Shown here piece after piece: positions 1 to 22,750 of a stretch of DNA of 26,890 nucleotides; the first letter of the stretch is position 1, and each line of letters starts with the position of its first letter. The DNA comes from a virus. The DNA is taken from IMG/VR virus record IMGVR_UViG_3300018080_000518, positions 1 through 26,890 of that record. One strand, given 5' to 3'. The notes under the pieces were generated by a model. The model saw nothing but the letters and a program-made list of their open reading frames with translations. It was not told where the DNA came from and ran no database searches. A program made the position numbers and the translations under genes.

Positions 1-1371
1 CATCGGAATTTTAAGATGCTTAGGCTTGATCGCGATAGCCGTGCCGGCTAACTCATCTCCGCACGGCGGTTCACCGTTATCGTCTACGCAATAGAGGCAA
101 CCGCTTGGGGGACAAACCGATAGAGGTTTGAACTTTTCTTCGGAACTACTCCGCGTATAGACAGGAACGCGATGGCCGTGGCACTGGTCCGAAGTCGTAT
201 ACTCTCTACCGATACTAACTCCGGTCTTGTCGACGATTTTACCACTTTCGTTTCGCTCGTAACGATACTCATAGCAAACGGAGTACGTTAACCCGTAGTC
301 AGAAGCCCAACGAATATACTTATCGTGAGCCGCCATTCTATACGCTTCGTTTACTGTCCGTTGTCCGCCGATATTCTCCTGGAAGAGAGACTCGAATGCT
401 CCGCCACGCTCTGGGCCGAAGCGTTTAGTAATACGATCTACCATCGCTGGGGCCCAAGAGTATCCAGCTTCAACGAACTTAACGATGACGTGATCTGCTC
501 CGGCGTTCGCTAACTTGCGAAATAGAGACTTAACGTGACCGTGCGTAGTCACTCCCGGTATGATCGGGTTGACTTGTATAGAAACGTAGATGTCGTTTTT
601 CTTTAGCCGTCGTATATCTTTGAAGTGGTCGGCTAACGGTAGAGCACCTGGAGATAGCTTTCTCCAGTCGGAGCTACTACAAGTGTTAATCGATTTCTGC
701 GCGTAGCTATGCTTATTCTTTCGAAGAAGACGTATAGCCCAAGAAGGGTAGCGCAGTCGACTCAAGAAGAAGATAGGCAACCCCACTTCTACGCAAGCTT
801 CAGCTGCCTCCTCTGAGTTATGGTAGAGTTCTTCTAGTGGAAGAAACGGATCAGTAAAACTACTGAAGTAAACTGCCGCTCCACGACGTACTGGACGCAG
901 CTGCTTCCTAATCTGTTCGCCGTAGTTATTCGGAACGGTTATAAGGCCGGTACCACGGTATCCGCGAAATCCAGAGTTTACGTAGCAGAACGCGCAGCCT
1001 ACCGCGCACCAACCGCCGTAGGGTTCAGTAAGAATAGCCTCAGTAAAACACGGTCTTGGTCTAACACCCTTTGGTTCGTGCTTATTCTTATACCAACCCT
1101 GAAGAGGTTTCGCTTTATCAATCCTCATATGAGGGTACGGTTCTAAGTAGGCTAAGACGGTTTTGCGATTCTCCTCAGATGCGTTACGCGTCATGCCGAT
1201 CTTGATCTCTCGTACCTTGATCTTTCTTTTCAAGACCTTGTCGTAAACAGTCTTGATCGGACCTAAGTTATCCCTAGGTTCAGGACGCATAAAATATTCG
1301 TAGTTGGTGGCGGCAGCGTTGTCGTCTTCTCCAACCATCTTCGTCGTTATCCAAGATTGTTCCTGATCCAT
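1..1371 (-). CDS. Radical SAM enzyme of the SPL/Rv2578c-like type (C-terminus cut by the window edge)
   Basis: An open frame runs without a stop from an ATG at 1371 to base 1, so at least 457 residues are present and the end lies outside the window. The start follows a clear GGAG ribosome-binding site. Residues 122-129 read CAVGCAFC, the CxxxCxxC motif that binds the radical SAM [4Fe-4S] cluster, and are followed by YV as in many family members. A later stretch, YFSSFTDPFLPLEE, matches the pattern after the first strands of spore-photoproduct-lyase-like and Rv2578c-like proteins. A second cysteine group (Cys420, 425, 428 and 437) could hold an auxiliary Fe-S cluster or zinc. The gene is last in the leftward operon, 12 bp after the P-loop kinase gene. 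The substrate is unknown. Its neighbours suggest a role in DNA base hypermodification, which is inference; a repair role is the main alternative. Confidence 0.85.
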   Translation of the reverse strand, partial: MDQEQSWITTKMVGEDDNAAATNYEYFMRPEPRDNLGPIKTVYDKVLKRKIKVREIKIGMTRNASEENRKTVLAYLEPYPHMRIDKAKPLQGWYKNKHEPKGVRPRPCFTEAILTEPYGGWCAVGCAFCYVNSGFRGYRGTGLITVPNNYGEQIRKQLRPVRRGAAVYFSSFTDPFLPLEELYHNSEEAAEACVEVGLPIFFLSRLRYPSWAIRLLRKNKHSYAQKSINTCSSSDWRKLSPGALPLADHFKDIRRLKKNDIYVSIQVNPIIPGVTTHGHVKSLFRKLANAGADHVIVKFVEAGYSWAPAMVDRITKRFGPERGGAFESLFQENIGGQRTVNEAYRMAAHDKYIRWASDYGLTYSVCYEYRYERNESGKIVDKTGVSIGREYTTSDQCHGHRVPVYTRSSSEEKFKPLSVCPPSGCLYCVDDNGEPPCGDELAGTAIAIKPKHLKIPM

Positions 1372-1383
1372 TTCTTTCTCCTA

Positions 1384-1935
1384 TCAGCGTGAAGCCTGAT
1401 CTACCCACTTGAGAACTGTTCGATGAGCTTGAGTCGATGCTCTACGTACGCATTTTATGTTCGCGGCAGTTAGCTTAACTCTAGCCCGTTCAATAACTCC
1501 TACCCGATTGGTCGTATTGGCTGGGTTTAGTGGTTTAGTATTACCAGCGGCACTTCTCCTTTGTTTTATTCTATCTAAGCACTGGTCGAGTGGGGTTGTT
1601 AGGAATACAACCTGTAGAGACTCTCCTAAGACATCCCCCATCTGTAACGCCCACTTCGTATCTTCGCTTAGGAGTAATCCTTCAGCGAGAATAACTTCAG
1701 CGTCTACCTCTTTCATCACGTCGAAGACTTGGCGAGCACTACCTATTGTATCGCAACCGCCGCACGCTAGTCCTTCGTAATGACCTAAGACCGCAATCTT
1801 TCCTTTCTTCGCTGTGTAAAATAGTGGATTCTTTCTACCGTCGATAAAGTGCTTAGCCCACTTGTACTCCTCCATAACTTTACGCATGACGGTAGTCTTA
1901 CCGCTACCGCTCGTGCCCCTAATCTGAATAACCAT
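1384..1935 (-). CDS. P-loop kinase, probable 5-hydroxymethyl-dU DNA kinase-type domain
   Basis: This 183-residue protein has a Walker A loop GTSGSGKT at residues 7-14 right at the N-terminus, then GHYEG and CGGCDTIGSA around residues 51-66, and a later EGLLLSED segment likely to hold the Walker B acidic residue. I recognise this pattern from small phage nucleotide-kinase-like proteins that accompany DNA base-hypermodification proteins. In characterised hypermodifying phages a kinase phosphorylates 5-hydroxymethyluracil in DNA to make a leaving group. Here the kinase is a separate protein whose start overlaps the end of the upstream helical-domain gene by 17 bp, so the two are probably translationally coupled. 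The ATG follows GAGGAG at good spacing. ATP-binding kinase is well supported; the DNA-base substrate is inferred from the neighbour. Confidence 0.8.
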   Translation of the reverse strand: MVIQIRGTSGSGKTTVMRKVMEEYKWAKHFIDGRKNPLFYTAKKGKIAVLGHYEGLACGGCDTIGSARQVFDVMKEVDAEVILAEGLLLSEDTKWALQMGDVLGESLQVVFLTTPLDQCLDRIKQRRSAAGNTKPLNPANTTNRVGVIERARVKLTAANIKCVRRASTQAHRTVLKWVDQASR

Positions 1936-2797
1936 TGTATCTCCTCTTCATCTTACCATCGCCTAGCCTAGCTCGTTCGTACTTATCGAACTCGCAGAGG
2001 CTATGCTCTATCTCTCGCATCTCCAGCCTAGGCTTCGTATGAATCTTCTTACGAGCTAACGTGAGAAGTTTCTTCATACGCTTTAGCCAATCCTTAGGCC
2101 ACGCCGGAGAACTAGAGTTGTTAGCTTTACCGGTTGGCTCCTCAGCGATACGGTATAGACCGCGTATAGCTCCGGGACCAGGGTTACACCACGTCAGAAC
2201 GTCCGTAGCGTCTCTTAGTAGGTTCGTATACCGGAGGTCGCACACGACTTCGTAAGCCATGAATCCGCCTAGCCCGTCGTAAGCGGTTAACGCTTCGTGA
2301 GCTTCCTGGAGAGAAGATACCTCTACAATCTTCGCGGTTAAGTTCTTACGATCTACCCAGACGTTCTGAATACGCTCGCAGATAGCTTCCAGCTTAGGCT
2401 TACCCGCTGGAGAGTTTATCATAAACGCTCCGGTGAATACTTTCTCTTTACGGTCTCGTATCTTTCCCAAGATACGGAGAGTCTTAGCCTTACTCCACTT
2501 TACGAGCAGCCCTTGGTCGAGCAGTATCTCTCCGGTTGGTATGTAGTTAAACCAACGGAAGATAATCGTAGCCATCACTTGATCGACGTCGGGATGGTAG
2601 GCGAACGGTTCACGGATATTCTCTCTGAACCATACCGTCGTCTTATCGTTTTCGCGGTACGGATTGGTAAAGAAATACTCACGCATAACCGGATCAGTTG
2701 TCCAGGGTTTTGGTTCTCCTCTCTCTTTACGTAGGTGGATCGCGTGGCGTTCCTTTATCCAGTATAGAAAACGTTCGGTTGGGTCTTCAGGGATCAT
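1919..2797 (-). CDS. DNA base hypermodification alpha-helical protein (HMUDK-helical / thymine pyrophosphorylase-like family)
   Basis: This protein of about 292 residues carries the conserved pattern I know from the helical domain of phage 5-hmdU DNA kinases and the related alpha-glutamyl/putrescinyl-thymine pyrophosphorylase families. Near the N-terminus are WIKERHAI, GEPKPWTTDP (about 27-36) and FTNPYRENDKTTVWF (about 43-57). Centrally are FRWFN, GGFMAYEVVCDLR and NPGPGAIRGL. The C-terminus has MREIEHSLCEFDKYERARLG. These families act on 5-hydroxymethyl-dU already in DNA and help replace its phosphorylated group with an adduct. I chose the ATG at 2797 because GGAG lies eight bases upstream; a GTG at 2806 is also in frame but overlaps the polymerase stop. 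It is encoded between DNA polymerase and the kinase. Family membership is strong; the exact reaction is not known. Confidence 0.85.
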   Translation of the reverse strand: MIPEDPTERFLYWIKERHAIHLRKERGEPKPWTTDPVMREYFFTNPYRENDKTTVWFRENIREPFAYHPDVDQVMATIIFRWFNYIPTGEILLDQGLLVKWSKAKTLRILGKIRDRKEKVFTGAFMINSPAGKPKLEAICERIQNVWVDRKNLTAKIVEVSSLQEAHEALTAYDGLGGFMAYEVVCDLRYTNLLRDATDVLTWCNPGPGAIRGLYRIAEEPTGKANNSSSPAWPKDWLKRMKKLLTLARKKIHTKPRLEMREIEHSLCEFDKYERARLGDGKMKRRYNGYSD

Positions 2798-2798
2798 A

Positions 2799-4880
2799 CT
2801 ACTCACTCCAGTTGTTCTTATGGTATTCGATACTTACCGGCGTAGGTATGCCGATGTCGTTGCCTCCTTCTTCCATCAGCTTGGCTACCTTCTTGACGAT
2901 TGATAGGTTGCGTTTATCCGGTCTATACGGAAAGTCAAATACAATCTCGTCGTGGACTTGCATAATCATTTTATACTCCTTCCGACGTCTACGACTGAGA
3001 TCAGTAAGGTAGTTATAGCAACGTATCATCGCTTTCATCATCCACCACATCGCCGTACCCTGAACGTGGTAGTTAAGAGGTACTGTAGGTTTGACCCTAC
3101 CGTACTGTCTTTCGCATTCGAGCGGATACCCTCTAGAAGGATCTACGGTCTTATCGGGTATCGTCTCTACGTAACCATACTTCGTAGCGTGTTCTACCAT
3201 CCTATCGTTGAGCTTTTTCATCTTAGCAAAACGAGCTTGAACTAGCTCTTGCGCTCCGGCTTTATGATAAGCTCTATCCGCCGTACCGCTTTCTGGTACA
3301 GCTCCGTATTGTACTGCGAAGTTTCCATTCTTCGTCCATTGGTAGTTTGTACTTGCGTACTTCTTCTTTGCTTTTAGAAGGTATTCTGGATCGCTTGTAT
3401 CTAGTTTAAGACGCTTAGTCCAAAGAATATCGAATACGAGTAGATGATTGCTACCGAAGTATGGAGGCTCATCGGGTTTCTCGAATAGGACTATCATCTC
3501 ATCTTCTTCTGCTTCGTACGCTGGTATTCGTAGTTCGATGTTATTAGCGTCGAGAGACCACCACTCTCTACCTTTAGCCGGACCAAAACAGTAGCGTAGG
3601 TTGAAACCCTCTTGCTTACTGATATTTTGTTCGTTGGGATTACTACTCGACCAACGTAACGTATTTGTACCGGTTGTATTCAACGACGGGTGAAGGACTC
3701 TCGCATCTCTCTTTTTAGGGAGAGAGAATTTGACGTAACTATTCATGTAGGTTATTGCCGTGTCTCGTCTACGCTTCTCTAGTAAGCTCTCCAAGAATCT
3801 AGGTATTCGTTGGTCTTCGGATAAAACTTTAGCAGCTTCTAGACAAGCTAACAGATCCGCCCTACCCATGCGAAGTTTTCCAGTCGGTGTTCTTATGTTT
3901 TTCCTCTTTGCTACGTCTTTACCTTTGGCCCCTGAGCCTACAAAACCGGAAGCATCTACTATCCCCATAAAGGGCTCAAGATACTTTTCTCCAAACTCTA
4001 ATAGAGAGGTATTTGTACCGCTCTTTGGTAAGGTTACTTCACTGCCGATACTTTTAGATAGACTAACGCAATCGTCATTAAGGGCAGCTGATTGGTTTTG
4101 ATACTCTCCTAGTAACTCGTTTAACCTAGACTCTGAATAGGTTACGCCAAAGTCTTCCATGTCGACAACGATAGGAAGGAGCTTAAGGCGTTCTCTATAG
4201 ATAGCTAGTAGCTTACGTTCCTTCATCTTACGAAGATGCTTTTTGTAGAGACGAATCGTAGCGGCACTATCCATGTTCGCGTAGTTCTCTAGGACGGTAA
4301 ACCACTCGTGGTCCGGAGGATACTCTGACGCTTCAGCTATTTGTCTAGGTAACCAGGCATCGTATTTCCAAACGCTGCCCTTAGCACTCGGCATTCCCTT
4401 CAGACCTGCCTCAGCGATCTTCCATTTGGGAAACTCCTTCTTCGCTATCCGCCTAGCCTTTTGACAGGCATCCTTTAGAGCTTCGTTATAGCCGTCTATA
4501 TCGATACCTAGATAAACTAGCGACATCGTAGAGAGGTCGTGACGGTTAAGACTCGATAAGAGATGTCCGCTTAGTAGAGTATCCCGTACTTTCGACCAGT
4601 CCCAACGAAACTTTACGTGGTTAGCTTCGAATACGTTTCTCAAAGCGTGGTAGTCAAACTTAGCGTTTTGCAATACGACGATTTTCGCAGCGTCGATAAG
4701 TCTTTGAATCTCGATGAGGTCTTGTCTGGGGACGATAGGTTGACGCGTAGCCGGACAGACTCTCCAGTGCCAGTAGAGTTGGTTATCTTTATCGTCGCAA
4801 GTCGTAACGAAGTACGGCATAGCATCGTGGTAGAGGTCTAAACCAGTCGTCTCAGTATCTAACGCTAGAACCTTAGGCAT
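2799..4880 (-). CDS. polA: Family A DNA polymerase with 3'-5' exonuclease domain
   Basis: The 693-residue protein is the replicative or repair DNA polymerase of the phage. The N-terminal proofreading domain has all three exonuclease motifs: DTETTGL (Asp8/Glu10), NAKFD and YANMD. The polymerase domain shows LRWSSSNPNEQNIS, motif A SLDANNIELR with the catalytic Asp, motif B TKNGNFAVQYG and motif C QVHDE. There is no 5'-3' exonuclease domain, which is normal for phage versions. In motif B the Lys, Phe and Tyr-Gly are kept, but the residue four before the Lys is Tyr where Pol I has Arg754. Phe rather than Tyr at the Pol I Phe762 position predicts discrimination against dideoxynucleotides. The gene overlaps the HNH gene by 8 bp and ends just before the hypermodification gene. 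Confidence 0.96.
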   Translation of the reverse strand: MPKVLALDTETTGLDLYHDAMPYFVTTCDDKDNQLYWHWRVCPATRQPIVPRQDLIEIQRLIDAAKIVVLQNAKFDYHALRNVFEANHVKFRWDWSKVRDTLLSGHLLSSLNRHDLSTMSLVYLGIDIDGYNEALKDACQKARRIAKKEFPKWKIAEAGLKGMPSAKGSVWKYDAWLPRQIAEASEYPPDHEWFTVLENYANMDSAATIRLYKKHLRKMKERKLLAIYRERLKLLPIVVDMEDFGVTYSESRLNELLGEYQNQSAALNDDCVSLSKSIGSEVTLPKSGTNTSLLEFGEKYLEPFMGIVDASGFVGSGAKGKDVAKRKNIRTPTGKLRMGRADLLACLEAAKVLSEDQRIPRFLESLLEKRRRDTAITYMNSYVKFSLPKKRDARVLHPSLNTTGTNTLRWSSSNPNEQNISKQEGFNLRYCFGPAKGREWWSLDANNIELRIPAYEAEEDEMIVLFEKPDEPPYFGSNHLLVFDILWTKRLKLDTSDPEYLLKAKKKYASTNYQWTKNGNFAVQYGAVPESGTADRAYHKAGAQELVQARFAKMKKLNDRMVEHATKYGYVETIPDKTVDPSRGYPLECERQYGRVKPTVPLNYHVQGTAMWWMMKAMIRCYNYLTDLSRRRRKEYKMIMQVHDEIVFDFPYRPDKRNLSIVKKVAKLMEEGGNDIGIPTPVSIEYHKNNWSE

Positions 4881-5424
4881 AATGTCTATCCGCTTCTGCT
4901 TCGGTTTTGAATTTCGGTGGGTACTCTTTACCGTCTACGACTAGTCGCCAATCTTCCCAAGCGGCTAACGCTCCGTTAGCTATTAGACTCTTAAGCTCTA
5001 CGACTCGTTCTGCCGCCGTTAGGCGTACTAGTCCAGCTTCTCTCAGGACGGTATTACCATGGCGGATAATCCGCGTAAACTCTTGGTGCCTGATCTTCCT
5101 AGTATCGAGTAGCCACTGAAGTCTACCGTCGTGAATAAAGTTGTGGCAGTCTTTACAAAGAGGCACCGCTTCAATGTAGTAGAGCTTACCACTAAGGTAG
5201 TCGACTTCGTAACGCTCGTGAGCGTCCAGTACTCCCTGCTTCGTTTGGTACTTTGAAATACCGCAAGCCTTACAATGAAAGTTCGTAGACTCGTATGCCT
5301 CTCTCCGAACTTTATCCCACCACGGCGTACCTAAAACTACTCTAGGAGCTACGCCGTGGAGAGGTTTCGGTATGTTACATCCAAGTAGTAGTTTAGGCTC
5401 ACGTTTCCATTTCCATCTAGCCAC
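4873..5424 (-). CDS. HNH-type zinc-binding protein, probable endonuclease
   Basis: A 183-residue protein with CKACG at about residue 51, then LDAHERYEVDY, then VPLCKDCHNFIH. This is the two-CxxC, beta-beta-alpha-metal layout of HNH nucleases, although the first His of the classic motif sits in an AHE context and the family is divergent. Such proteins in phages are homing endonucleases or packaging- or replication-linked nicking enzymes. The segment after the finger (about residues 110-183) is helical-looking and has no recognised domain. The start is GTG, with AAAGGA upstream, inside the end of the zinc-finger gene (8 bp overlap). The 3' end overlaps the polymerase start by 8 bp, so it is part of the replication operon. 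Nuclease activity is inferred from the motif only. Confidence 0.7.
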   Translation of the reverse strand: MARWKWKREPKLLLGCNIPKPLHGVAPRVVLGTPWWDKVRREAYESTNFHCKACGISKYQTKQGVLDAHERYEVDYLSGKLYYIEAVPLCKDCHNFIHDGRLQWLLDTRKIRHQEFTRIIRHGNTVLREAGLVRLTAAERVVELKSLIANGALAAWEDWRLVVDGKEYPPKFKTEAEADRHYA

Positions 5425-5629
5425 TGGTAATCCTTTCTAGCCGACTACTACCGCACCGTTTACACGTCAGCTTCCTGGAAGAGATAGACCTACAGTCTAG
5501 GCAACGATAGAGGGATTGGCTACCGCTACCGTTACAAGGTACACATCTACCTCCGGAGCTACTAACGCCGGTGCCGCTACACGCGATACACTTAACCTTC
5601 TTCAGGCGTAGTTTCTTTGCTCCTCCCAT
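5417..5629 (-). CDS. Small zinc-finger protein with DnaJ-like CxxCxGxG repeats
   Basis: This 70-residue protein has two CxxCxGxG units, CIACSGTG and CVPCNGSG, like the zinc centre of DnaJ. They are followed by CLDC and CKRCG, a second zinc-ribbon pair. Such small proteins often bind nucleic acid or act as adaptors, but no specific function can be given. It begins inside the 3' end of the upstream gene (38 bp overlap) with AAAGGA 11 bases before the ATG, and its end overlaps the GTG start of the HNH gene. Confidence 0.7.
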   Translation of the reverse strand: MGGAKKLRLKKVKCIACSGTGVSSSGGRCVPCNGSGSQSLYRCLDCRSISSRKLTCKRCGSSRLERITSG

Positions 5630-5969
5630 CTGCGTCTATATCCTTTCTCGGCAGGTTTCTACGGTCAGCCTCTTTACGAAACTCTTCGTACACGTTCTCT
5701 GAAACGATGATTTGGTTATCCGATAGCATCGGGTTGCTGATAACGTGGATCTGTCCTCTCCAACAATCTAATATACCGATAGCTAACGAAGCGTTCATCC
5801 GCTGTTGGTTAGCCTTCATACCTTTTGAGGCTTTATCCATTAGCTGTTTCAGTTCTTTTGGGTCAGTTACTTGGTTCTTCTCCTGAGGCCCCGTCGTTGC
5901 TTGGCTCATCCGGCGTTCGAATTGATTGTAACGTTCTGGCGATGACGGGTGCGAGTCCTTCTCGTTCAT
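5592..5969 (-). CDS. Hypothetical protein, 125 residues
   Basis: I do not recognise this protein. It is hydrophilic and charged at both ends, with a central segment (SLAIGILDCWRGQIHVIS) that looks beta/hydrophobic. The first ATG at 5969 has AAAGGA six bases upstream and is the best supported start, but it makes a 107-bp overlap with the preceding gene, which is long for this genome. An internal ATG at 5909 (MSQATTG) would cut the overlap to 47 bp but has no clear ribosome-binding site. Its 3' end overlaps the zinc-finger gene. It and the preceding gene share an IVIEDTVE / IIVSENVYEEF type segment, so they may be related; this is only a visual impression. Confidence 0.6.
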   Translation of the reverse strand: MNEKDSHPSSPERYNQFERRMSQATTGPQEKNQVTDPKELKQLMDKASKGMKANQQRMNASLAIGILDCWRGQIHVISNPMLSDNQIIVSENVYEEFRKEADRRNLPRKDIDADGRSKETTPEEG

Positions 5970-6180
5970 AGGTTTCCTTTAGCTCTTTGATAAAGTCGAC
6001 GGGATGCTTGTCGAGTACCAACTCAACCGTATCCTCGATGACGATCTGGTTTTGTTGAATAGCTACCTTAGACCGTGAAGCTTTAGCTATACGAAAGATG
6101 CGAACATCCGTCCCGTACGCTATATTGACCGCAGCAGCCGGTTCTTCCTTCTTCCCTTCAAACTTAAGTATATCACTCAC
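5863..6180 (-). CDS. Hypothetical protein, 105 residues, GTG start
   Basis: No recognised family. I chose the GTG at 6180 because AAGGGA lies seven bases upstream and the start falls in the GAGTGAGTGA overlap with the stop of the upstream gene. Longer in-frame extensions would run deep into that gene. The product has a beta-rich middle (AVNIAYGTDVRIFRIAKAS, QIVIEDTVELVLD) and a helical, acidic tail rich in Glu, Ser and Pro. The next gene starts 107 bp before this one ends. Role unknown. Confidence 0.55.
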   Translation of the reverse strand: MSDILKFEGKKEEPAAAVNIAYGTDVRIFRIAKASRSKVAIQQNQIVIEDTVELVLDKHPVDFIKELKETYEREGLAPVIARTLQSIRTPDEPSNDGASGEEPSN

Positions 6181-6838
6181 TCTTCTTTCCCTTTCTGGCA
6201 AGTTTCCTTCTTTGTTGACGTCGAGTCTCTTCTTCAACCATCTTCTCGAACTCTTCAGCACAGCACGGTACTCCCGGAGGTAATAATGGAGTCTCTTCTT
6301 TAGTAGGCTCCGTATTAGTTTCCGAGATACGAGTAAAGACGTCAGCATTCCTATTGAGTAGCACGACTTCGGCCCCACCGTAGTCGATAGTATCACCTTG
6401 GTGCTTACCATCTATCGTAGGAGTCCCAGTACCTCCGGAGCCTACCTCTACGCCGACCTCTTTTTGCCCGTCTACTAGCTTCATAACTGTAGGAGAGAAT
6501 AACGTTTGGAAGACGTTTCGATAGTGGTTGAAATCGTTTTCGAATCTACGCTGGTTCTCGCGTAGCTCTCGAAATTCGTTGTAGACTTTGTTACTATCCC
6601 GCGTTTGCTTCGTATAGCGTTCGACAACTTCTTTCAGAATAGTTAGCTGCTCTTCAAACGCCTCCAATCGTTTCTCTAACTCCGTAGCGTAGTCGTAGAG
6701 CTTGACCGTAGGTTGCTCTCTTCTCTCCGTAGCTTTCGTGCCGGACTTAACGGAACTGAACGCAACGATGATAAACCCTACGATACAGACTAGGGCAAGT
6801 ACCAAAACAAAATCCAGTAGAGTAAACTCAACTATCAT
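6173..6838 (-). CDS. Membrane-anchored coiled-coil protein, 221 residues
   Basis: Residues 7-28 (LLDFVLVLALVCIVGFIIVAF) form one strong transmembrane helix. It is followed by a long charged helical region (about 45-115) with heptad-like spacing, a Gly/Thr-rich hinge around GSGGTGTP, and a basic tail. One N-terminal membrane helix plus a coiled coil is the layout of inner-membrane spanins and of various phage scaffolding or membrane proteins, but nothing in the sequence proves a lysis role. The start has AAGGAG at good spacing and overlaps the upstream stop. It sits in a run of small membrane or unknown genes between the epimerase and the zinc-finger gene. Confidence 0.7.
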   Translation of the reverse strand: MIVEFTLLDFVLVLALVCIVGFIIVAFSSVKSGTKATERREQPTVKLYDYATELEKRLEAFEEQLTILKEVVERYTKQTRDSNKVYNEFRELRENQRRFENDFNHYRNVFQTLFSPTVMKLVDGQKEVGVEVGSGGTGTPTIDGKHQGDTIDYGGAEVVLLNRNADVFTRISETNTEPTKEETPLLPPGVPCCAEEFEKMVEEETRRQQRRKLARKGKKSE

Positions 6839-7100
6839 CCCGTTCTCCTTGTCTACTTGCGCCTATAGCGGTGCCGATAGTTCGTAGTATCCAGACAAAC
6901 GCGTCAGTGTCTTCTTCGATCCAATCAGCGATACGTCGTGGGATAGGGCTACCGAAGATGTGAGAGCCTATTACATACTCTCCGTCTTCTTTACCTGTAC
7001 AGTCGTCTCCGAACACGAAGCAATTATCGACTCCAGGTACAACGTCTGCGTTGAGACCGACGATAGTGCTGTTGGTCGTTTCCTTTTTTCCTCCGGTCAT
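6828..7100 (-). CDS. Hypothetical protein, 90 residues
   Basis: Unrecognised protein. The ATG at 7100 follows AAGGAG at nine bases and is preferred over a TTG further upstream that lacks a ribosome-binding site. The first third is Thr/Gly/Val-rich, with NCFVFGDD and YVIGSHIFG strands. The C-terminus contains a mildly hydrophobic stretch, AFVWILRTIGTAIGAS, which could be a weak membrane or amphipathic helix. Its stop overlaps the start of the membrane coiled-coil gene, so the two are coupled. Confidence 0.6.
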   Translation of the reverse strand: MTGGKKETTNSTIVGLNADVVPGVDNCFVFGDDCTGKEDGEYVIGSHIFGSPIPRRIADWIEEDTDAFVWILRTIGTAIGASRQGERDDS

Positions 7101-7167
7101 TTCGGTTTTCTCCTTCGTAGCTTCCAAGTAAAGTTCTCATCTTCGGGTAGTAGATCCTGGGGAGAAG

Positions 7168-7326
7168 TTAGTCCCACATCGTCCGACGACTTTGTTCTAC
7201 TACCTTGTTCTCTTCTTCCCTGAAGGGTTGGAGCTTTCCCATGATGTCGGGGTCCCAACTATGAAAGATGTCCAACCAGATTTTAGAGTAGAACAGAAAC
7301 GAAACTAGAAGACGTATGATATTCAT
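7168..7326 (-). CDS. Small N-terminally hydrophobic protein, 52 residues
   Basis: A short frame beginning MNIIRLLVSFLFYSK and ending RRTMWD, preceded by a near-perfect AAAGGAG with ideal spacing, 11 bp after the epimerase stop. The first 20 residues are hydrophobic and aromatic and could insert in or lie on the membrane. The remainder is charged (REEENKVVEQSRR). The strong ribosome-binding site is the main reason to call it a gene. No function can be assigned. Confidence 0.6.
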   Translation of the reverse strand: MNIIRLLVSFLFYSKIWLDIFHSWDPDIMGKLQPFREEENKVVEQSRRTMWD

Positions 7327-7337
7327 CGCGTTCTCCT

Positions 7338-8381
7338 TTAGAGGTTAAGCCAGTACTTCAGTTGCCGTTCGTGTTCCGCTATCCAATCGTATAGATTTTC
7401 AAACGTATTACATACGGATATACGGGGTTCCCAAGCAAAGTCCCGTGAGATCCTTTCGATGTTTGAAACGAATACGTGTTGATCGTACGGACGTGGACGG
7501 GCGTTATCTTTTTCAACTACTATCTTCGTTATATTTTCGCAGAGGGTAGCAGCCTCTCTAAGACTAATAGTGTTATTGATACCCCCACCCACGTCGTAGG
7601 TTTCGCAGATAGAACCACTACGGAGTAAGGCGTGGGCTTGAGCGTTGATAAGCCTACACAAGTCACCTACGTAAAGAACGTCTCTGACCTGCTTACCTCC
7701 CCATCCGTAGTAAGTGAACGGTAAGTCAAAGTAGTGAGCTAGCATTAAACGCATCGCCCAACCCTGCTCTACCGAAGCCATCTGGTTGGGACCGGCGATA
7801 CAAGAGAATCGGTTAATGATTACTCTGAGATCGTAAGCCCGGGCCCACTCCTTGATTACTTCTTCGGCTACATACTTAGAGTTACCGTAGATAGTACGCG
7901 GTAAGCCTGAGGCCGCATTGTAACTATCGGAAACCTTGAACGTAGTCTCGACTCTGAATCGCGTAAGCTCTTCAACCAGATTAAACTCGTTAACGTACTC
8001 TCCAGGGTAGACCTTATTAGACGACCATTGAATCAGAGAACAGTCGAGTTCCCGACAGAGCTTAAGAATCCAGACTACTTCGGCTACGTTGTTATCGAAG
8101 TCAGTAGTAGGATTCTCCATACTAGCTACCGCCGAACTCTGAGCAGCGCAGTTGAGGATGATATGCGGTTTACTGGAACCATCGCTTAGATATGAGGCAG
8201 TCATATCCCCGATAGGGCATTCTTTGACGGCGATACCGTTGAGTCGTAGATACTGATAGTTACGTTGATTCTCTGGTCGGTAGATAGGATCTACGCAGAG
8301 AACTTTATGACCTAGCTTCGTAAAATACAAAGCCAAATTAGTCCCGACAAAACCGCACCCGCCTGGGATAAGTATATTCAC
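7338..8381 (-). CDS. NAD-dependent sugar epimerase/dehydratase, CDP-paratose 2-epimerase-like
   Basis: A 347-residue extended short-chain dehydrogenase. The Rossmann glycine motif GGCGFVG lies at residues 7-13 and the catalytic YGNSK (YxxxK) is present, with a preceding WSSNKVY serine segment. The later pattern INRFSCIAGPNQM, then QGWAMRLMLAHYF and GKQVRDVLYVGDL, closely follows CDP-paratose/CDP-tyvelose 2-epimerase-like proteins. It would interconvert a nucleotide sugar in the cytoplasm. In a phage this supplies or alters a donor sugar for glycosylating virions, host surface polymers or DNA. Its only glycosyltransferase partners here are over 13 kb away at 21849-24493. It overlaps the upstream gene by 4 bp. 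Family is secure; the sugar substrate is not. Confidence 0.9.
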   Translation of the reverse strand: MNILIPGGCGFVGTNLALYFTKLGHKVLCVDPIYRPENQRNYQYLRLNGIAVKECPIGDMTASYLSDGSSKPHIILNCAAQSSAVASMENPTTDFDNNVAEVVWILKLCRELDCSLIQWSSNKVYPGEYVNEFNLVEELTRFRVETTFKVSDSYNAASGLPRTIYGNSKYVAEEVIKEWARAYDLRVIINRFSCIAGPNQMASVEQGWAMRLMLAHYFDLPFTYYGWGGKQVRDVLYVGDLCRLINAQAHALLRSGSICETYDVGGGINNTISLREAATLCENITKIVVEKDNARPRPYDQHVFVSNIERISRDFAWEPRISVCNTFENLYDWIAEHERQLKYWLNL

Positions 8382-8797
8382 TTCTCATCTTCCTTTGTCT
8401 GGTTGAGGCCCCTCAGAAACTCCTCAAGCTCTACGCCGAACTTGGTAAGCTCTTGGGTCTCGTATTCAACTACATTCAAAAGAGCGTTAGAGTCCTGACC
8501 TAGTAATCTTAAAATGATCCCTGTCTTGATTTGCATCAGTTCGGAGAGCATTAAAACGCACCCGATAATCCGGTCAGGATTTCTCACGAGTATGTCTTTC
8601 AAGAACTGGAATCGTTTTTCTAGATTCGCTTCTTGAATCAAACAAAGGTCATCCAACTTACGAAGGATCTTATTAACGCATTCAAAGTCGTCTAGATTAG
8701 ATACCACTGTTTGGGCCCTGAGATAGAAATAAGAAAAGAGAAGGATACCAGCCGGCAACAAGTTACCCACATCCCACCAAGCCGGTATCCTTCTCAC
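8378..8797 (-). CDS. Hypothetical protein with possible N-terminal membrane helix; start uncertain
   Basis: The longest version begins at a GTG at 8797 and gives 139 residues, with a hydrophobic segment NLLPAGILLFSYFYLRA (about 12-28) followed by a helical, charged domain rich in Leu and Glu. That first part is encoded exactly by a terminator-like hairpin and its T-rich tail, and the GTG lacks a good ribosome-binding site. A second GTG at 8707 has AGGG eight bases upstream and would give a 109-residue soluble helical protein. I cannot decide between them. The 3' end overlaps the epimerase start by 4 bp. No family recognised. Confidence 0.55.
   Translation of the reverse strand: MRRIPAWWDVGNLLPAGILLFSYFYLRAQTVVSNLDDFECVNKILRKLDDLCLIQEANLEKRFQFLKDILVRNPDRIIGCVLMLSELMQIKTGIILRLLGQDSNALLNVVEYETQELTKFGVELEEFLRGLNQTKEDEK
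8725..8795 (-). terminator. Rho-independent-type terminator after the acidic protein gene
   Basis: Bases 8784-8795 and 8738-8749 are perfect 12-bp inverted repeats (GAGAAGGATACC and its complement), extended by GGC/GCC with a small bulge around a loop of about 25 nt. In the leftward direction the stem is followed by TTTTCTTATTTCT. It lies just past the stop codon at 8819, where a terminator for the highly acidic protein's transcript would be expected. The long loop makes it weaker than classic terminators. Confidence 0.6.
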
Positions 8798-8818
8798 GGA
8801 GAAACGAAACGACCAAGA

Positions 8819-9904
8819 TCAATCTTCGCTGAGATCGTCCCAGCTAACGCCCTTGTAAACTTTGCCGTTGTCGTGGTTCTTGAGGTTAACCGTTTTAGCT
8901 TTCGGGAATACGGCGGTTACCTCGCAGTCGTAGGACTTCCGAGAACGTGGCGGCTTGTAGCTGTAAACTTCTTCCTTCTCAGGAACAAATTCATCGCCGT
9001 CGTCGTCTTCATCCTCCTCATCGTCTTCTTCTTCTTCTTCGTCGTCTTCGTCGACTTCTTTACGAGCTTCGATGATAGCGTCACCGAGTTCTACCCAAGT
9101 CGGGTAGTCATCCGGTTCAAGCTCGAACTCCGCTGCGAGTTCGGTGAGCTTCTCTGCTAAATCTTCGTGCCCGTCGTCTGCGAGTTCGCCAGCGTCGTGC
9201 GGGTTGATATCTTCGTCTGGATCAAACTCCGGTTCTTCGTCTTCGTCTTCGTCTTCTTCGTCTTCTTCGTCTTCTTCGTCTTCTTCGTCGTCTTCCAACT
9301 CTTCGTCTTCTTCCGGTTCTTCGTCGTCGTCGGTATCGTCGTCAACGTCGTCAGGGATGTCTTCGTCGAAACCTTCGGCTACTCCGCCCCAGACGTGGTT
9401 AACACGCAGGTTGGGGTACTGCTTCGTAGCCTCACCTTGCCAGGTTCGAAAACGGAAGTAAACGCCGGACTCTTTGAGTTCTTGGGCGAGTGCTTCGACT
9501 TCTTCTCCGCTCTCGACTTCTTCGGTTTCCGCTCCCAACTTTCGAAGTTCGTTAAGCACCCAATCGAAGTGTTCGTCAATCGTCTTGCGAGAGCGGTTAG
9601 GCGTATCGCAGATCGGTTCAGGGCCAATAGACGTACGGAGACCTTGAACCTTCATCATACCGCTCTTACCCAACGAGATTTCTTCGGGAGCCACGACGAT
9701 GCCGGCCGCACGAAAGAAAGGCTCACCCTTCATGTCTCCTTTCTCGTACGTCCCAAACTTACACTCAGTAAGCTGGGCTATGCCGTTTTCGATTCCTGGA
9801 GGTAAGTCTCCGCCACCGGGCATCTTCGTTTCGTCTGCTCGATGTTTCTTGATCGCTTTGTTGTACTTAGCTCCAGCCAACGCACTTTTCTTTGCTCTAG
9901 CCAT
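8819..9904 (-). CDS. Highly acidic protein, possible phage single-stranded DNA-binding protein
   Basis: 361 residues in three parts. Residues 1-185 look like a folded beta-rich domain, with KMPGGGDLPPGIENGIAQL, PFFRAAGIVVAPEEI, QGLRTSIGPEPICDTPNRSRKT and VYFRFRTW. A run of Asp/Glu (about 186-235) comes next, then a short helical segment, a second Asp/Glu run (about 283-305) and a small basic/beta C-terminus ending KGVSWDDLSED. I do not recognise a named family with certainty. The position directly after CsrA, the Sak4-like ATPase and the recombination nuclease, together with the acidic tracts typical of SSB tails, suggests an ssDNA-binding or recombination-mediator role; this is inference. 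The start follows GAGGAG and overlaps the csrA stop by 8 bp. Confidence 0.75.
   Translation of the reverse strand: MARAKKSALAGAKYNKAIKKHRADETKMPGGGDLPPGIENGIAQLTECKFGTYEKGDMKGEPFFRAAGIVVAPEEISLGKSGMMKVQGLRTSIGPEPICDTPNRSRKTIDEHFDWVLNELRKLGAETEEVESGEEVEALAQELKESGVYFRFRTWQGEATKQYPNLRVNHVWGGVAEGFDEDIPDDVDDDTDDDEEPEEDEELEDDEEDEEDEEDEEDEDEDEEPEFDPDEDINPHDAGELADDGHEDLAEKLTELAAEFELEPDDYPTWVELGDAIIEARKEVDEDDEEEEEDDEEDEDDDGDEFVPEKEEVYSYKPPRSRKSYDCEVTAVFPKAKTVNLKNHDNGKVYKGVSWDDLSED
9251..9286. repeat. Tandem 9-bp repeat inside the acidic tract
   Basis: Four perfect copies of GTCTTCTTC (read on the + strand) sit within a longer GTC/TTC low-complexity stretch of about 110 bp. They encode the Glu-Asp-Glu runs of the acidic protein. 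Slippage could change the length of the acidic tract between relatives. Confidence 0.85.
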
Positions 9905-10085
9905 TGAGTTGCTCCTCTGGTACTGGCTTTGTTACTAACTCTTCTCGAACGATAGGTATATGCTTTTTAGCTTCAATCCCTAACCGAACGTTTTCACTAT
10001 TCAAACGAACTACCGTAATCTTGATTAGGTCGTCACCCTCTCCTAGACAAATAACCTCTTGGACTTTCCTACTTAAAACTAACAT
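9897..10085 (-). CDS. csrA: CsrA/RsmA-type translational regulator
   Basis: A complete 62-residue CsrA. It begins MLVLSRK, has the beta-strand core ITVVRLNSENVRLGIEA, and ends the conserved part with HIPIVREEL. Arg47 in VREEL corresponds to the RNA-binding Arg44 of E. coli CsrA, and Leu4 and Arg6 at the N-terminus, also part of the RNA-binding surface, are kept. CsrA homodimers bind ANGGA motifs in mRNA leaders and usually block ribosome access. The ATG at 10085 follows GAAGGGA and lies one base after the stop of the ATPase gene; longer upstream frames are not supported. It overlaps the acidic protein gene. A phage copy could target host or phage mRNAs; the targets are unknown. Confidence 0.94.
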   Translation of the reverse strand: MLVLSRKVQEVICLGEGDDLIKITVVRLNSENVRLGIEAKKHIPIVREELVTKPVPEEQLNG

Positions 10086-10086
10086 C

Positions 10087-10908
10087 TCAATTCCCTTCGA
10101 TGAGTTTAAGGATTTTCTGGTACGATGGGTCCGAAACGAACTGGGGTAGCTCCGTACCTTTAGGCACTCGGAACTTAACCGTGTAAACCGGATGAGCTTT
10201 GGTGCGTATACACCACTCGACGTCACCGCTTTTAATCTGTCGCGTTACCGTCTTCTTCCCTACCTTTATCCGCTTCGTCTTCGTACTCTCCCGGATGAAC
10301 GCTTGGACTACGTAGTCGCATGCCGGATTTAGCCAACCCGTTACGCTAGGGCTAGCAGCTGCTCCGACGTAGGGTAAAACTACATCGCCCTCAGTATCGG
10401 TATTAAAGTCTCTTTCCTGGGCGAGAATGAGAACGTTAGCGTCAAGCTCTAGTAACGCTCTGAGGTATTCCTTCGTTTGGAGAGCGCACTGAGACCAGTC
10501 CTGCTGAGAAGCCATACCCCAAGAACCTTGAGCGGGCAACTTTTCTATCTCTAAAATCTCGCGCAGACAAAGATCCTGTAAACCCGTAAGCGTATCCGCT
10601 ACTACCGTTTTGTACTTGGAGGATTCTCCTACGTGATCTACTAGTCGTTTAACGTCGTCGGTGCTACGGACGTCGATAAAGTCTACACCCTTAACGTTGT
10701 GGACGGACTTCGTACCGTCTTCGAATCCTACTAGAAGTAAAGGTTTTGGAAACGTACATGCGAACGTCGTCTTACCGGTGCCGGTTCTGCCGTAGACGTT
10801 CATCTTGATAGAGTTATCTTTGAGGGATACCGGCTGGATCCTACTCGCAATAGAACTCTTAGAACGTCGTCTTGGCCCTTTGGGCCGTTGCTTCTTGACG
10901 GTAGGCAT
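10087..10908 (-). CDS. Sak4/RecA-like phage nucleotide-binding ATPase
   Basis: A 273-residue P-loop ATPase with a basic N-terminus, Walker A GRTGTGKTT at about residues 40-48 and a Walker B-like strand KTVVADTLTGL near residue 100. QERDF and later strands follow, in the layout of the AAA_24 phage nucleotide-binding family, which includes Sak4-type single-strand annealing proteins. Such proteins promote recombination with the phage SSB. The ATG overlaps the nuclease stop (TAATG) with AAGGAG upstream. The gene lies between the PD-(D/E)XK nuclease and csrA, with the acidic putative SSB next, which fits a recombination group. The ATPase family is secure; annealase activity is inferred. Confidence 0.87.
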   Translation of the reverse strand: MPTVKKQRPKGPRRRSKSSIASRIQPVSLKDNSIKMNVYGRTGTGKTTFACTFPKPLLLVGFEDGTKSVHNVKGVDFIDVRSTDDVKRLVDHVGESSKYKTVVADTLTGLQDLCLREILEIEKLPAQGSWGMASQQDWSQCALQTKEYLRALLELDANVLILAQERDFNTDTEGDVVLPYVGAAASPSVTGWLNPACDYVVQAFIRESTKTKRIKVGKKTVTRQIKSGDVEWCIRTKAHPVYTVKFRVPKGTELPQFVSDPSYQKILKLIEGN

Positions 10909-11945
10909 TACAACTCCTTATAGAGGTTATCCGTCACTACCAAGCCTAGCTTACTTCCGTTATTCATGTATTGGTCTAGTTCTCCAACTCCGCTACGGTC
11001 CATCGGATTCCATACGCCGTACGGATACCGATAATGAAAAGAGTTTACTAACTCTCCTTGATCTTCGCTCGAAAGGTTTATCCACTCCCACCAATCCCAA
11101 AGCATCTCCAAGATCGGGTAGAGGCAGAGGCGTTCGAAGTCGTCTATATTCTTCTCCGTAAACTCTACTCTCCAACGCATGAAGAAGAACTCCGGTTCAC
11201 CTTTTATGAGCCCTGCTAGCCGAACGTAGAATTGAGATGACGTTTCTCCTCTCGGATTAGACTTGGTAGGCTTAAACGGACGTATCGAATGTCGGCCGCC
11301 AGCTAGTGGGCGACGTATTACGTTATACCGTACGCCGGAAACGGGTAAGTCTATACCCTCTCTCCTACACCTAGCCCGCAACGCGACTAGATACGTTCCA
11401 GTTTGTAGATCCCAGAGAAGTTGATTAGCTACCTCTTGCTCGTTGATCTCGCCTTTCGTTTTATTCTCCTGGAGGTAAATACCTTTCTTACGTCCACGAG
11501 CGTTCGGCATAGCGTCTACCGAATCGAACTTACCGCGAAGACGTACGATACGTCCACTAGGCAACTCGATAGGTTCGCTGAACGTGTCTTCGGCGTAGAG
11601 CGGTTCACGCTTTTTAACGTCCGGATGCTTCTTCCAGTACTGAACGTAGATAGGAAACTGAAGGCGGCATACTTGATACCACTTCTCTACGTCGGCACTT
11701 TGTAGAGGATACTCTTTCGCCAACTCTTGGGCGTACTCTTTGAGTTTTCCTTCGTAGGGTTGCTTATTCGCTAAGCACTCCTCGCAGAGATGCCACATGT
11801 TACCGTACTCTAGAGCGTGGCTAAATCTAGGAGCAGATACCAACCCGTCGATAACGAGTAGCTTGAAACGCTCTCGGCAGACGATAAACTTACTCAGTAA
11901 CGATTGAGTGATGCCGTCTACCTCCGGACCTTTCCAGAGACTCAT
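10908..11945 (-). CDS. PD-(D/E)XK nuclease of the RecB/Cas4-like superfamily
   Basis: 345 residues. The N-terminal ITQSLLSKFIVCRERFKL is the typical first helix of PDDEXK_1 proteins. The active-site pattern is LRGKFDSVD near residue 137 (motif II Asp) and LQENKTKG near residue 160 (Glu-x-Lys, motif III), followed by a helix with NQLLWDLQTGTYL that corresponds to the QxxxY region. I see no four-cysteine Fe-S set of the Cas4/AddB kind. It probably works as a 5'-3' exonuclease in phage recombination with the adjacent ATPase. The ATG follows AAGGAG. Confidence 0.9.
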   Translation of the reverse strand: MSLWKGPEVDGITQSLLSKFIVCRERFKLLVIDGLVSAPRFSHALEYGNMWHLCEECLANKQPYEGKLKEYAQELAKEYPLQSADVEKWYQVCRLQFPIYVQYWKKHPDVKKREPLYAEDTFSEPIELPSGRIVRLRGKFDSVDAMPNARGRKKGIYLQENKTKGEINEQEVANQLLWDLQTGTYLVALRARCRREGIDLPVSGVRYNVIRRPLAGGRHSIRPFKPTKSNPRGETSSQFYVRLAGLIKGEPEFFFMRWRVEFTEKNIDDFERLCLYPILEMLWDWWEWINLSSEDQGELVNSFHYRYPYGVWNPMDRSGVGELDQYMNNGSKLGLVVTDNLYKEL

Positions 11946-11998
11946 AACTTTCTCCTTCGGACTAAAGACTAACCGACTACTACTTAGTATACCGGCTA

Positions 11999-12565
11999 TT
12001 AAAACGGCACTAATTCGCTAAGAGTATCGCGGAGCGTAACGATAGAGCGTTGAACCGCTAAACCTTTTTGCGACTCATCCGCACGAAGGATAGCTGCGGG
12101 GTGGATAATATCCGCGAAGAGAATAGACTCTTCTAGTTCGTCCGTTCCTAGGTGCTCTGGCGTAGCGTACGTAGTAGAGAGCTTACCTATTCGTACGATA
12201 GCTTGGGGCCTAGCTAGTCTTACAACTTCGCGTAGACGATTTCTACACTTACGAATACAAGACTTACTAGGCTCACTAATCTTGTTCGAGTCTTCGTCCA
12301 GAGGAATACACGCAACTAGATTAGTAAAAGCGAATCTCCAGCTGACGTCTTCGGTAGCTTCGGAGATAATACCGTTCAACAGTTTACCCGCTGGACCTAC
12401 GAACGGATTTCCAACTACGTTCTCACTAGCTCCAGGAGCTTCTCCAATCATAAGAACGTCGCACGGTAGCTTACCTCTCAATAGCACTACCTTCTTTCGA
12501 GTCTTCCAAAGCTCACACTTTTTACAGTTACTCCACTTCTTCTTATGAGTAGTCCATCGGCTCAT
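11999..12565 (-). CDS. Family 4 uracil-DNA glycosylase with Fe-S cluster
   Basis: 188 residues from the ATG at 12565, which overlaps the upstream stop (ATGA) and follows GAAGG. Motif A is GEAPGASE (41-48), the water-activating loop of family 4 enzymes; motif B is IHPAAIL with His155. Cys14, Cys17, Cys86 and Cys103 match the spacing of the four [4Fe-4S] ligands. The NPFVGPAGKLL stretch after motif A is also typical. It removes uracil from DNA. In a phage that may use hydroxymethyl-dU-derived bases it could purge misincorporated or deaminated uracil; activity on modified bases is untested. It sits between the small Cys protein and the PD-(D/E)XK nuclease. Confidence 0.93.
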   Translation of the reverse strand: MSRWTTHKKKWSNCKKCELWKTRKKVVLLRGKLPCDVLMIGEAPGASENVVGNPFVGPAGKLLNGIISEATEDVSWRFAFTNLVACIPLDEDSNKISEPSKSCIRKCRNRLREVVRLARPQAIVRIGKLSTTYATPEHLGTDELEESILFADIIHPAAILRADESQKGLAVQRSIVTLRDTLSELVPF

Positions 12566-12774
12566 TCTTCGAAACCTTCTGTAGCAAAGTTCGCTCCACA
12601 CTCATCGTCTAAGATTACGTCTCCTTTGTAGGAAAACGAAACCCACGGAGAACCACAACAGCCGCAACCGCCAACGTTCATTTCTATCTCGTGTTCTTTG
12701 AGTATCTCCTTTATAGATTCGATTCTCTCTTCAACTTCTTCTTGGTCCTTACACTTGCCGGTTTTGTAGGTCAT
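12562..12774 (-). CDS. Small cysteine-rich protein, 70 residues
   Basis: Begins MTYKTGKCKDQEEVEERI at an ATG in the ATGA overlap with the RuvC stop, with GGAG nine bases upstream; a TTG further up is less likely. The N-terminal half is a charged helix. The second half has GGCGCCGSPW, four closely spaced cysteines counting the earlier Cys, then strands and DDECG, which suggests metal binding. The function is unknown. It is translationally coupled to both the resolvase and the uracil glycosylase. Confidence 0.65.
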   Translation of the reverse strand: MTYKTGKCKDQEEVEERIESIKEILKEHEIEMNVGGCGCCGSPWVSFSYKGDVILDDECGANFATEGFEE

Positions 12775-13256
12775 CGGTTTGTTCTCCAACAGTACTCCGC
12801 GATGAGAAGAGCGTCACACGTCTTTAGCGTTAGCTTAGGAGCAGCGTTACCGAAGTGCTGTTGGGCTGCTCCCTTAAGGAAGTTCTTCCACTGGCTACTC
12901 GTTTCGGTTTTCTTCCTAGTCCGAATACCTAAGCCCTTCATCCACTTACGTGGGACAGCTTCCTGGAAAGGAACTCCGAAAGAGATTAGACAACCGCGAA
13001 TGAATCCGTAGTTGCGACCGAAGTTAAACGAGCTAGTTACGCCCTGCTTAGGCATCGCGTTTACTTGTTCGAGTACCGCGCAGCATTCTTCGTCTACTAC
13101 CCACTCTTCTAGAAGTTCCGCAATGTCGGTTTCAGTATCAGGCATTGGAGCTACGCCTATCTCTGAGAAGCGTAGTAGCTTAACGCTCGTATGAATACCT
13201 TCTCTTAGAAAGGCCAACCCACCACCCTTACCTGGGTCGATACCGATATAAATCAT
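12771..13256 (-). CDS. RuvC-like Holliday junction resolvase (phage type)
   Basis: 161 residues with an RNase H-like fold signature. GIDPGKGGGLA carries the first catalytic Asp (Asp7), VLEQVNAMP carries the Glu (Glu63), and CDALLIAEY near the end carries the last Asp (Asp148). Between them is the TSSFNFGRNYGFIRG segment common in phage RuvC-like proteins. It would cut branched DNA made during replication and recombination before packaging. The ATG overlaps the upstream stop (TAATG). Confidence 0.9.
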   Translation of the reverse strand: MIYIGIDPGKGGGLAFLREGIHTSVKLLRFSEIGVAPMPDTETDIAELLEEWVVDEECCAVLEQVNAMPKQGVTSSFNFGRNYGFIRGCLISFGVPFQEAVPRKWMKGLGIRTRKKTETSSQWKNFLKGAAQQHFGNAAPKLTLKTCDALLIAEYCWRTNR

Positions 13257-13489: not shown

Positions 13490-13574
13490 GGCGTTCTCCT
13501 TTGTTTAGTCTCACTAACTAATACCTAATATACCCGACCTCTAAACGGCTAAACGTTCGCCTCTAGGTCCGCTT

Positions 13575-13638: not shown

Positions 13639-13673
13639 TAATCTAGTAGTAGAGGGCAGCCGTCTCTTCTCTC

Positions 13674-13703: not shown

Positions 13704-13744
13704 AGGTTTCTGCTATACGTACCCTAACGAAGAAGGAGCTAGTA

Positions 13745-22745: not shown

Positions 22746-22750
22746 AGCGT

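Follow-up and report, generated by a model that had tools for sequence, protein, structure and literature searches.

The DNA examined here, called the window throughout, is a 26,890-base virus record (IMG/VR IMGVR_UViG_3300018080_000518). Its left end carries, on the minus strand, a likely cassette for hypermodification of thymidine in DNA, the pathway of which was judged from the gene content of IMG/VR contigs. The cassette consists of three genes lying directly downstream of a DNA polymerase gene. Their window positions are:

2799..4880, minus strand: family A DNA polymerase (DNA_pol_A, E 1.6e-31; 3'-5' exonuclease, E 1.4e-7)
1919..2806, minus strand: HMUDK_hel protein, here the helical protein (PF18723, E 9.1e-55), with a predicted DNA-glycosylase-like fold
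1384..1935, minus strand: P-loop kinase, probable 5-hydroxymethyl-deoxyuridine (5-hmdU) DNA kinase (phrog_800; AAA_33), relative of M6 gp54 and PaMx11 gp49
1..1371, minus strand: radical S-adenosylmethionine (SAM) enzyme, cut by the window edge (phrog_9252), relative of M6 gp53 and YuA gp12

The profile scores (HMUDK_hel, phrog_9252 and phrog_800) show that the three cassette genes are more than chance matches. The helical protein gene is read from a GTG start (1919-2806), an alternative ATG three codons later giving 1919-2797. It overlaps the kinase gene by 17 bp (1919-1935), a 12-bp gap (1372-1383) separates the kinase stop from the radical SAM gene, and Shine-Dalgarno-like stretches, judged by eye, precede the kinase and radical SAM starts. 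The window edge cuts the radical SAM gene two residues plus the stop before its end. An earlier description made without database searches (the sequence-only reading) had placed the three genes here on this strand, with the same overlap and spacing and the polymerase directly upstream, and it was correct on all of these points. It had also seen no hydroxymethylase gene in the window, and our search of the window for a thymidylate-synthase-family gene likewise gave none (0 of 1 records).

As that reading had proposed, the helical protein belongs to the HMUDK-helical family: it scores 186.4 bits against a cutoff of 25 and covers profile positions 5-278 of 281. The other family proposed, aGPT-PPlase, was matched by neither the helical protein nor the kinase among Pfam matches listed up to E 1, most of those above 0.1 having been dropped. 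The radical SAM protein, a phrog_9252 match (E 5.4e-186), is 57.1% identical to its M6 counterpart over query residues 15-454, the identity to the YuA protein also being ~57%. Its CX3CX2C motif (C122/C126/C129) is invariant across three aligned relatives and present in 59 of 61 radical SAM open reading frames (ORFs), the exceptions being those of loci L061 and L062. A C-terminal four-cysteine pattern, possibly a second cluster or a metal site, is kept in 58 of the 59 full-length ORFs of the family. The kinase matches phrog_800 (E 3e-18) and AAA_33 (29.1 bits, cutoff 27), and shares 42% identity with PaMx11 gp49 over 89%. The labels that stand in PHROG and RefSeq, 'DNA repair photolyase' for the radical SAM enzyme and 'terminase small subunit' for the kinase, look wrong in this context and are almost certainly incorrect, given the P-loop of the kinase, its score above the AAA_33 cutoff and the presence of both genes in hypermodification operons at dozens of viral loci.

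The M6-type gene set across the window edge

IMG/VR contig G001 (locus L003; 66,846 bases) includes the whole window at 100% identity, and thus the genes that it holds past the window edge belong to the same virus. Window 26890-9234 corresponds to contig 49190-66846 and window 9256-1 to contig 1-9256, and the resulting 23-base overlap suggests a circular map. By G001 position, the operon continues as follows:

7886-9265: radical SAM enzyme, the full gene extending beyond the window edge
9267-10055: amino acid:DNA transferase (PF18724, ADDT; E 1.1e-14, 55.2 bits, cutoff 26.2)
10048-10875: pyridoxal phosphate (PLP) enzyme (PALP, E 9e-12)
10875-11666: glycosyltransferase-like protein
11669-12643: amidoligase (PF12224, Amidoligase_2; 30.1 bits, cutoff 22)
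13198-13770: 5'-nucleotidase (NT5C, E 3e-9)
13751-14815: thymidylate-synthase (TS)-family protein, dUMP-hydroxymethylase-like (PF00303, E 3.6e-21), ~4.5 kb past the window edge
between the TS-family and MazG genes: protein with no match in Pfam or PHROG
15347-16039: MazG (E 9e-11)
after MazG: primase

Window and contig together place all the M6-type core enzymes (TS-like enzyme, kinase, helical protein, amino acid:DNA transferase, radical SAM enzyme and PLP enzyme) in one virus. Identity to the M6 proteins is 39% for the transferase (gp51), 45% for the PLP enzyme (gp52), 41% for the TS-like protein (gp58) and 35% for the helical protein (gp55). A solved structure, that of the PaMx11 5-PmdU glycinyltransferase (8z2m), is matched by the transferase with an E-value of 4.8e-45, and the YuA record of the TS-like gene is annotated 'putative deoxyuridylate hydroxymethyltransferase'. 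The analysis thus settles the likeliest identity of the three window genes and supplies the missing hydroxymethylase-like gene, for which the sequence-only reading had suggested a search of the rest of the genome.

The closest known system is the 5-aminoethyl-2'-deoxyuridine (5-NedU) pathway of M6 and YuA (M6 gp51-gp58), which has the same transferase, PLP enzyme, radical SAM enzyme, separate kinase and helical proteins and TS-like hydroxymethylase, likewise near the polymerase. The gene order differs, being polymerase, helical protein, kinase, radical SAM, transferase, PLP enzyme here and transferase, PLP enzyme, radical SAM, kinase, helical protein, TS, polymerase in M6. Unlike M6, the window's virus adds the glycosyltransferase-like protein, amidoligase, 5'-nucleotidase and MazG beside the cassette. 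Among phage records the nearest kinase and helical proteins are those of the PaMx11 group (42% and 43% identity for PaMx11, 44% and 46% for Epa5). PaMx11 shares with the window's virus a glycinyltransferase step (gp46) and an amine-capping enzyme placed after the amine-maker, but it has a flavin adenine dinucleotide (FAD) oxidoreductase (gp47) instead of the radical SAM and PLP enzymes, and its cap is an acetyltransferase (gp48) rather than an amidoligase.

We consider it highly likely that the window holds one end of an operon for making 5-NedU, or a derivative of it, in the DNA of the phage along the M6 route. M6 DNA contains 5-NedU, the phosphorylation of 5-hmdU being tentatively ascribed to a 5-hmdU DNA kinase (PMC6449724). 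From the gene content, homology, gene order and predicted fold we infer the following chemistry. The TS-like enzyme would form hydroxymethyl-dUMP, and 5-hmdU would then be incorporated into DNA. The P-loop kinase would phosphorylate this base, aided by the glycosylase-fold HMUDK_hel protein, which would flip or present it, whereupon the amino acid:DNA transferase would swap the phosphate for glycine. The radical SAM enzyme would rearrange the glycine adduct and the PLP enzyme would decarboxylate the rearranged adduct to give a primary amine; work by Lee et al. in 2022 is said to have identified the former as an isomerase and the latter as a decarboxylase. MazG and the 5'-nucleotidase probably clear normal thymidine nucleotides.

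Several observations weigh against this assignment. The window radical SAM protein falls below the Radical_SAM (PF04055) cutoff (23.5 versus 29.5 bits; E 7e-5). The kinase is just 27-29% identical to M6 gp54 (E 1e-8 to 4e-11) and does not reach the HMUDK_HMUD1 (PF18748) cutoff (18.9 versus 27 bits), so that it is assigned as a probable 5-hmdU DNA kinase on the strength of its context and its homologs, M6 gp54 and PaMx11 gp49. A sequence search for solved relatives of the PLP and radical SAM proteins found none, and their proposed reactions therefore rest on M6 homology and on the pathway knowledge credited to Lee et al. 2022. Moreover, a TS-family match alone is no proof of hydroxymethylase over thymidylate synthase activity. 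Judged by gene content, the window cassette is nevertheless a member of the M6-type pathway, with extras, and the M6-type gene set supports the earlier proposal of a thymidine-hypermodification cassette with a kinase step, an amino-acid adduct and radical SAM remodelling. The same proposal had raised an undescribed base as the product. As the three genes and their near neighbors match the M6 set, they alone predict no such base, whereas an undescribed product is still possible through the amidoligase and glycosyltransferase-like genes outside the window.

The product of G001 10875-11666 stays 'glycosyltransferase-like': it has no Pfam match up to E 0.01 and no match in phage records, its profile match to TET-associated glycosyltransferases is weak (hhalign E 0.023, probability 2%), and a DDD motif is invariant in six copies. 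Locus L078 (12522-16408) has five tandem copies of this protein, single in G001, beside kinase, helical and TS genes. In L004 (11385-13944), a relative of the window operon, the radical SAM enzyme is kept, and a DAO-type FAD enzyme (PF01266, E 3.4e-12) and an aldo/keto reductase (PF00248, E 4.7e-28) stand in place of the PLP enzyme. Elsewhere on the minus strand of the window lie a uracil-DNA-glycosylase-superfamily gene (12002-12601; PF03167, E 2.4e-18) in a phage expected to have hmdU-derived bases, a CsrA-like global regulator (9897-10226; PF02599, E 1.8e-16) and two glycosyltransferase-like genes (21849-24493, PF13524, E 7.7e-17; 7338-8381, PF13692, E 4.9e-6). The virus also encodes a nucleotide-sugar epimerase (PF01370, E 2e-27), and a possible function of the glycosyltransferase-like pair and the epimerase is sugar decoration of DNA or of the host surface.

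The helical protein and its separation from the kinase

The AlphaFold2 model of the helical protein, made from an alignment of 26 sequences, has a predicted local distance difference test (pLDDT) score of 93.3. The top Foldseek matches were an archaeal 8-oxoguanine DNA glycosylase with DNA and the PaMx11 glycinyltransferase; both were weak (E 0.15 and 0.28, probability 0.97), and no match reached E <= 0.001. When the Foldseek candidates were re-examined with VIA-align, the model aligned with the PaMx11 5-PmdU glycinyltransferase 8z2n (Z 11.9, root-mean-square deviation (rmsd) 3.5, 214 residues aligned), queuosine-salvage DUF2419 proteins (Z 10.4-11.1) and MjaOgg 3knt (Z 10.0, rmsd 4.1, 186 aligned), and nearly all of the rows left among the matches listed were DNA glycosylases (Z 5.7-9.3). 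Note that Z values below ~13 can be common among helical proteins, and hence it is the consistency of these rows that supports the fold. A sequence search for solved relatives gave none that was credible. The model suggests a DNA-gripping protein that would make 5-hmdU accessible to the kinase by flipping or presenting this base, and we regard it as the probable base-presenting partner of that enzyme. The HMUDK_hel family gains by this a testable role, that of a glycosylase-fold, base-presenting kinase partner.

The separate kinase and helical genes had been read as special, fusion being taken as the norm. This view did not survive comparison: the two genes are also separate in M6, YuA, PaMx11 and Rhizobium phage RHph_I65, and when the fetched loci were searched for ORFs matching both families, none of the 73 helical-profile ORFs (73 loci, including a few duplicates of one virus) also matched the kinase profiles. 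The phrog_800 profile (511 positions) matches the window kinase at 34-207 and has a weak helical match at 325-418, a pattern that hints that kinase-helical fusions exist. Near Det7 gene 36 and PhiW-14 gene 72 a helical gene was seen and no kinase match.

The radical SAM profile recovered 55 viral loci, several of them on short contigs, in which the transferase was found 47 times, the PLP enzyme 47, the kinase 48, the helical protein 45 and TS 37, with all five at 28 loci. The order helical protein, kinase, radical SAM occurs in 14 of the 55, and the contigs of L012 and L022 start inside it. Two loci with close relatives of the Sak4 gene of the window's phage, L152 (14597-19233) and L153 (13073-18357), have the polymerase with no cassette genes detected downstream of it; in L152 a 5'-nucleotidase-like gene, judged by eye, lies there. 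From these two loci the cassette looks like a module that is gained or lost.

The amidoligase and its genomic context

The L003 amidoligase is a member of Amidoligase_2, and its relatives at L022 (20.0 bits), L006 (16.5) and L088 (19.2) score below the cutoff of 22. A sequence search for a solved relative gave none that was credible (best E 0.011). The structural model (pLDDT 87.3) was matched exclusively by carboxylate-amine ligases in all 50 rows each of Foldseek and VIA-align among the matches listed, these being YbdK, its relative 1tt4, gamma-glutamylcysteine synthetase and glutamine synthetase. VIA-align gave Z 10.3 for 1tt4 (rmsd 4.5, 223 aligned) and Z 9.9 for the gamma-glutamylcysteine synthetase 1v4g, and the Foldseek TM-scores by query were low (0.28-0.39), with just three E-values <= 0.001. 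Residues G13, E15, E17, D20, E58, H95, R197, E212 and R214 are identical in 24 of 24 aligned rows, some of which are near-identical, and the conserved acidic, histidine and arginine positions are presumably catalytic.

A protein search that ignored context found 18 viral loci, and a profile search found 115 relatives, the best 80 of which were kept; these include near-identical loci and are not independent. Both transferase and kinase genes are present at 71 of the 80, a count that is partly self-fulfilling because these loci themselves served to build the TET-type profiles, and at least one of the two is present at 77, the exceptions being L064, L067 and L109. A first count had left 26 of the 80 without core genes and was revised once TET-type transferase and kinase subfamilies had been found; with the first-survey profiles alone, both genes are seen at 24 of 80. 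Pfam searches with one representative each identified the TET-type transferase (PF18724, E 1.2e-19), the TET/JBP oxygenase (E 7e-25) and GATase_6 (E 2.3e-10). One member of the TET-type kinase cluster, a loose one of 80 ORFs from 46 loci, was confirmed by Pfam as P-loop nucleotide kinase 3.

As a control we took the Sak4 gene of the window's phage, which lies ~5 kb from the polymerase. Of 20 such loci 19 were counted, L018 being in the first survey; both genes were present at five and either at eight (Fisher p 1.5e-7 for 5/19 versus 71/80). Crediting L018, which has both genes, and L151, which is the window's virus with the cassette cut by a contig end, gives 7 of 20. Several control contigs are short, and the comparison restricted to loci of at least 20 kb is therefore fairer: both genes were present at 22 of 25 amidoligase loci versus two of nine control loci (p 6.5e-4).

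The 80 loci differ in chemistry. The thymidine type, defined by TS or helical genes, comprises 25, of which five hold the radical SAM and PLP pair, 17 a FAD enzyme like PaMx11 gp47, one a glutamine amidotransferase and two none of these. Forty are of the TET type, with a TET/JBP oxygenase, and hold GATase_6 (38 loci) or a FAD enzyme (two). The 15 of neither type, as far as the sequence available extends, hold GATase_6 (seven), a FAD enzyme (two), radical SAM plus PLP (one), the PLP enzyme only (two) or none (three). A quick tree of the amidoligases without bootstraps (84 rows, after removal of nine duplicate or near-identical loci) has a branch (SH-aLRT 94) that sets off 33 rows, 22 FAD, seven radical SAM and four other, in which the radical SAM and FAD loci are interleaved; the starred branches of the tree require the radical SAM label to change four times or more. 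This interleaving indicates that one ligase lineage accompanies whichever module makes the aminoalkyl-deoxyuridine. The radical SAM loci L044 and L054 lie among the TET rows.

Related genes were seen in two other settings. In Vibrio phage 2.275.O (L007, 9866-15074) a distant amidoligase relative adjoins 7-deazaguanine genes, its immediate neighbor among them being annotated as a 7-cyano-7-deazaguanine reductase. Among contigs of bacterial metagenome-assembled genomes (L147-L150), the amidoligase is accompanied by transferase and kinase in three (WOR-3, Parcubacteria and Sulfuricaulis bins) and stands alone in the fourth (Loktanella). The L148 amidoligase is identical to that of viral locus L127, and these contigs are probably phage or prophage DNA.

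Possible reactions of the amidoligase

We give an even chance to a scheme in which the M6 route proceeds to 5-NedU and the amidoligase then uses ATP to link the primary amine of the base to a carboxylic acid, which is probably an amino acid. The product would be an amide-capped base, and the enzyme would take the slot held by the acetyltransferase in PaMx11. In the window's virus the amidoligase gene comes two genes after that of the PLP enzyme, and 22 of the 25 thymidine-type loci hold an amine-making module (radical SAM plus PLP in five, FAD in 17). The main argument for capping at such loci is that the ligase lineage keeps company with either module. The carboxylate-amine-ligase fold, the invariance of E15, E17, E58, H95, R197, E212 and R214 and the 7-deazaguanine genes adjoining the Vibrio phage relative are also in its favor. 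The one precedent for amide ligation on a phage base in the literature consulted is CmoY of the CmoA/CmoX/CmoY system of Synechococcus phage S-B43, which was shown to act on 5-carboxymethylcytosine in phage DNA in an ATP-dependent manner (PMC12783734). The parallel is partial: CmoY is asparagine-synthetase-like, whereas the amidoligase of the window's virus has a predicted glutamine-synthetase/gamma-glutamylcysteine-synthetase fold, and the base gives the carboxylate in S-B43 but would give the amine here. Amine capping also fits the TET-type pairing with GATase_6 (38 of 40) less well than would amidation of a carboxylate. The amidoligase is present at just six of the 55 radical SAM loci and is thus optional, three of the 25 thymidine-type loci (two short contigs and L078) have no amine module, and the quick tree places L044 and L054 with the TET loci.

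A less probable alternative is that the amidoligase is unrelated to DNA and acts on the cell wall of the host or on a metabolite, the phage base being plain 5-NedU. In the accounts consulted, phage members of Amidoligase_2 are given such roles, the modules of other phages being assigned to peptidoglycan (PMC11945000) or to the cell wall or secondary metabolites (PMC10580990), and L064 and L067 hold the amidoligase with just a PLP enzyme and the polymerase detected. We consider this explanation unlikely given the company of transferase and kinase, both at 71 of 80 amidoligase loci versus five of 19 control loci, and its persistence in the comparison limited to loci of at least 20 kb.

Alternatively, the amidoligase could act one step earlier by amidating the carboxylate of the glycine adduct with ammonia or another amine, in which case two end products would share the DNA. 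The glycine adduct is an intermediate common to the radical SAM and FAD routes, and the GATase_6 protein beside the ligase in TET-type loci could supply ammonia. For the thymidine-type loci we find this quite improbable, in that the amidotransferase is missing from nearly all of them (it was seen with L078 and L149) and 22 of the 25 hold enzymes that would remove the glycine carboxylate. In the TET-type loci, the GATase pairing indicates that carboxylate amidation may take place.

Amine capping would be one case of a broader proposal, to which we give somewhat less than even weight: that many uncultivated phages have a DNA-dedicated amidoligase subfamily which extends base modifications of amino-acid origin through an amide bond, here with an amino acid on 5-aminoethyl-deoxyuridine, and which serves several chemistries. 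The same subfamily would then act on bases made by the radical SAM/PLP and FAD modules, on TET/JBP-oxidized bases and possibly on 7-deazaguanine. Our literature search found no account of an amidoligase in thymidine-type cassettes, although an earlier mention in primary papers remains possible. The amidoligase extension may be the new element here, the cassette being of the M6 type in gene content and its split kinase normal.

Members of the phage amidoligase family occur in base-hypermodification cassettes of two chemistries or more. If the capping scheme is true, the DNA of the window's virus would carry aminoacyl (peptide-like) side chains. If the amidoligase acts on DNA bases, amide-linked amino acids on phage thymine may exist, which would widen the known chemistry of DNA and have a bearing on evasion of restriction and other defenses.

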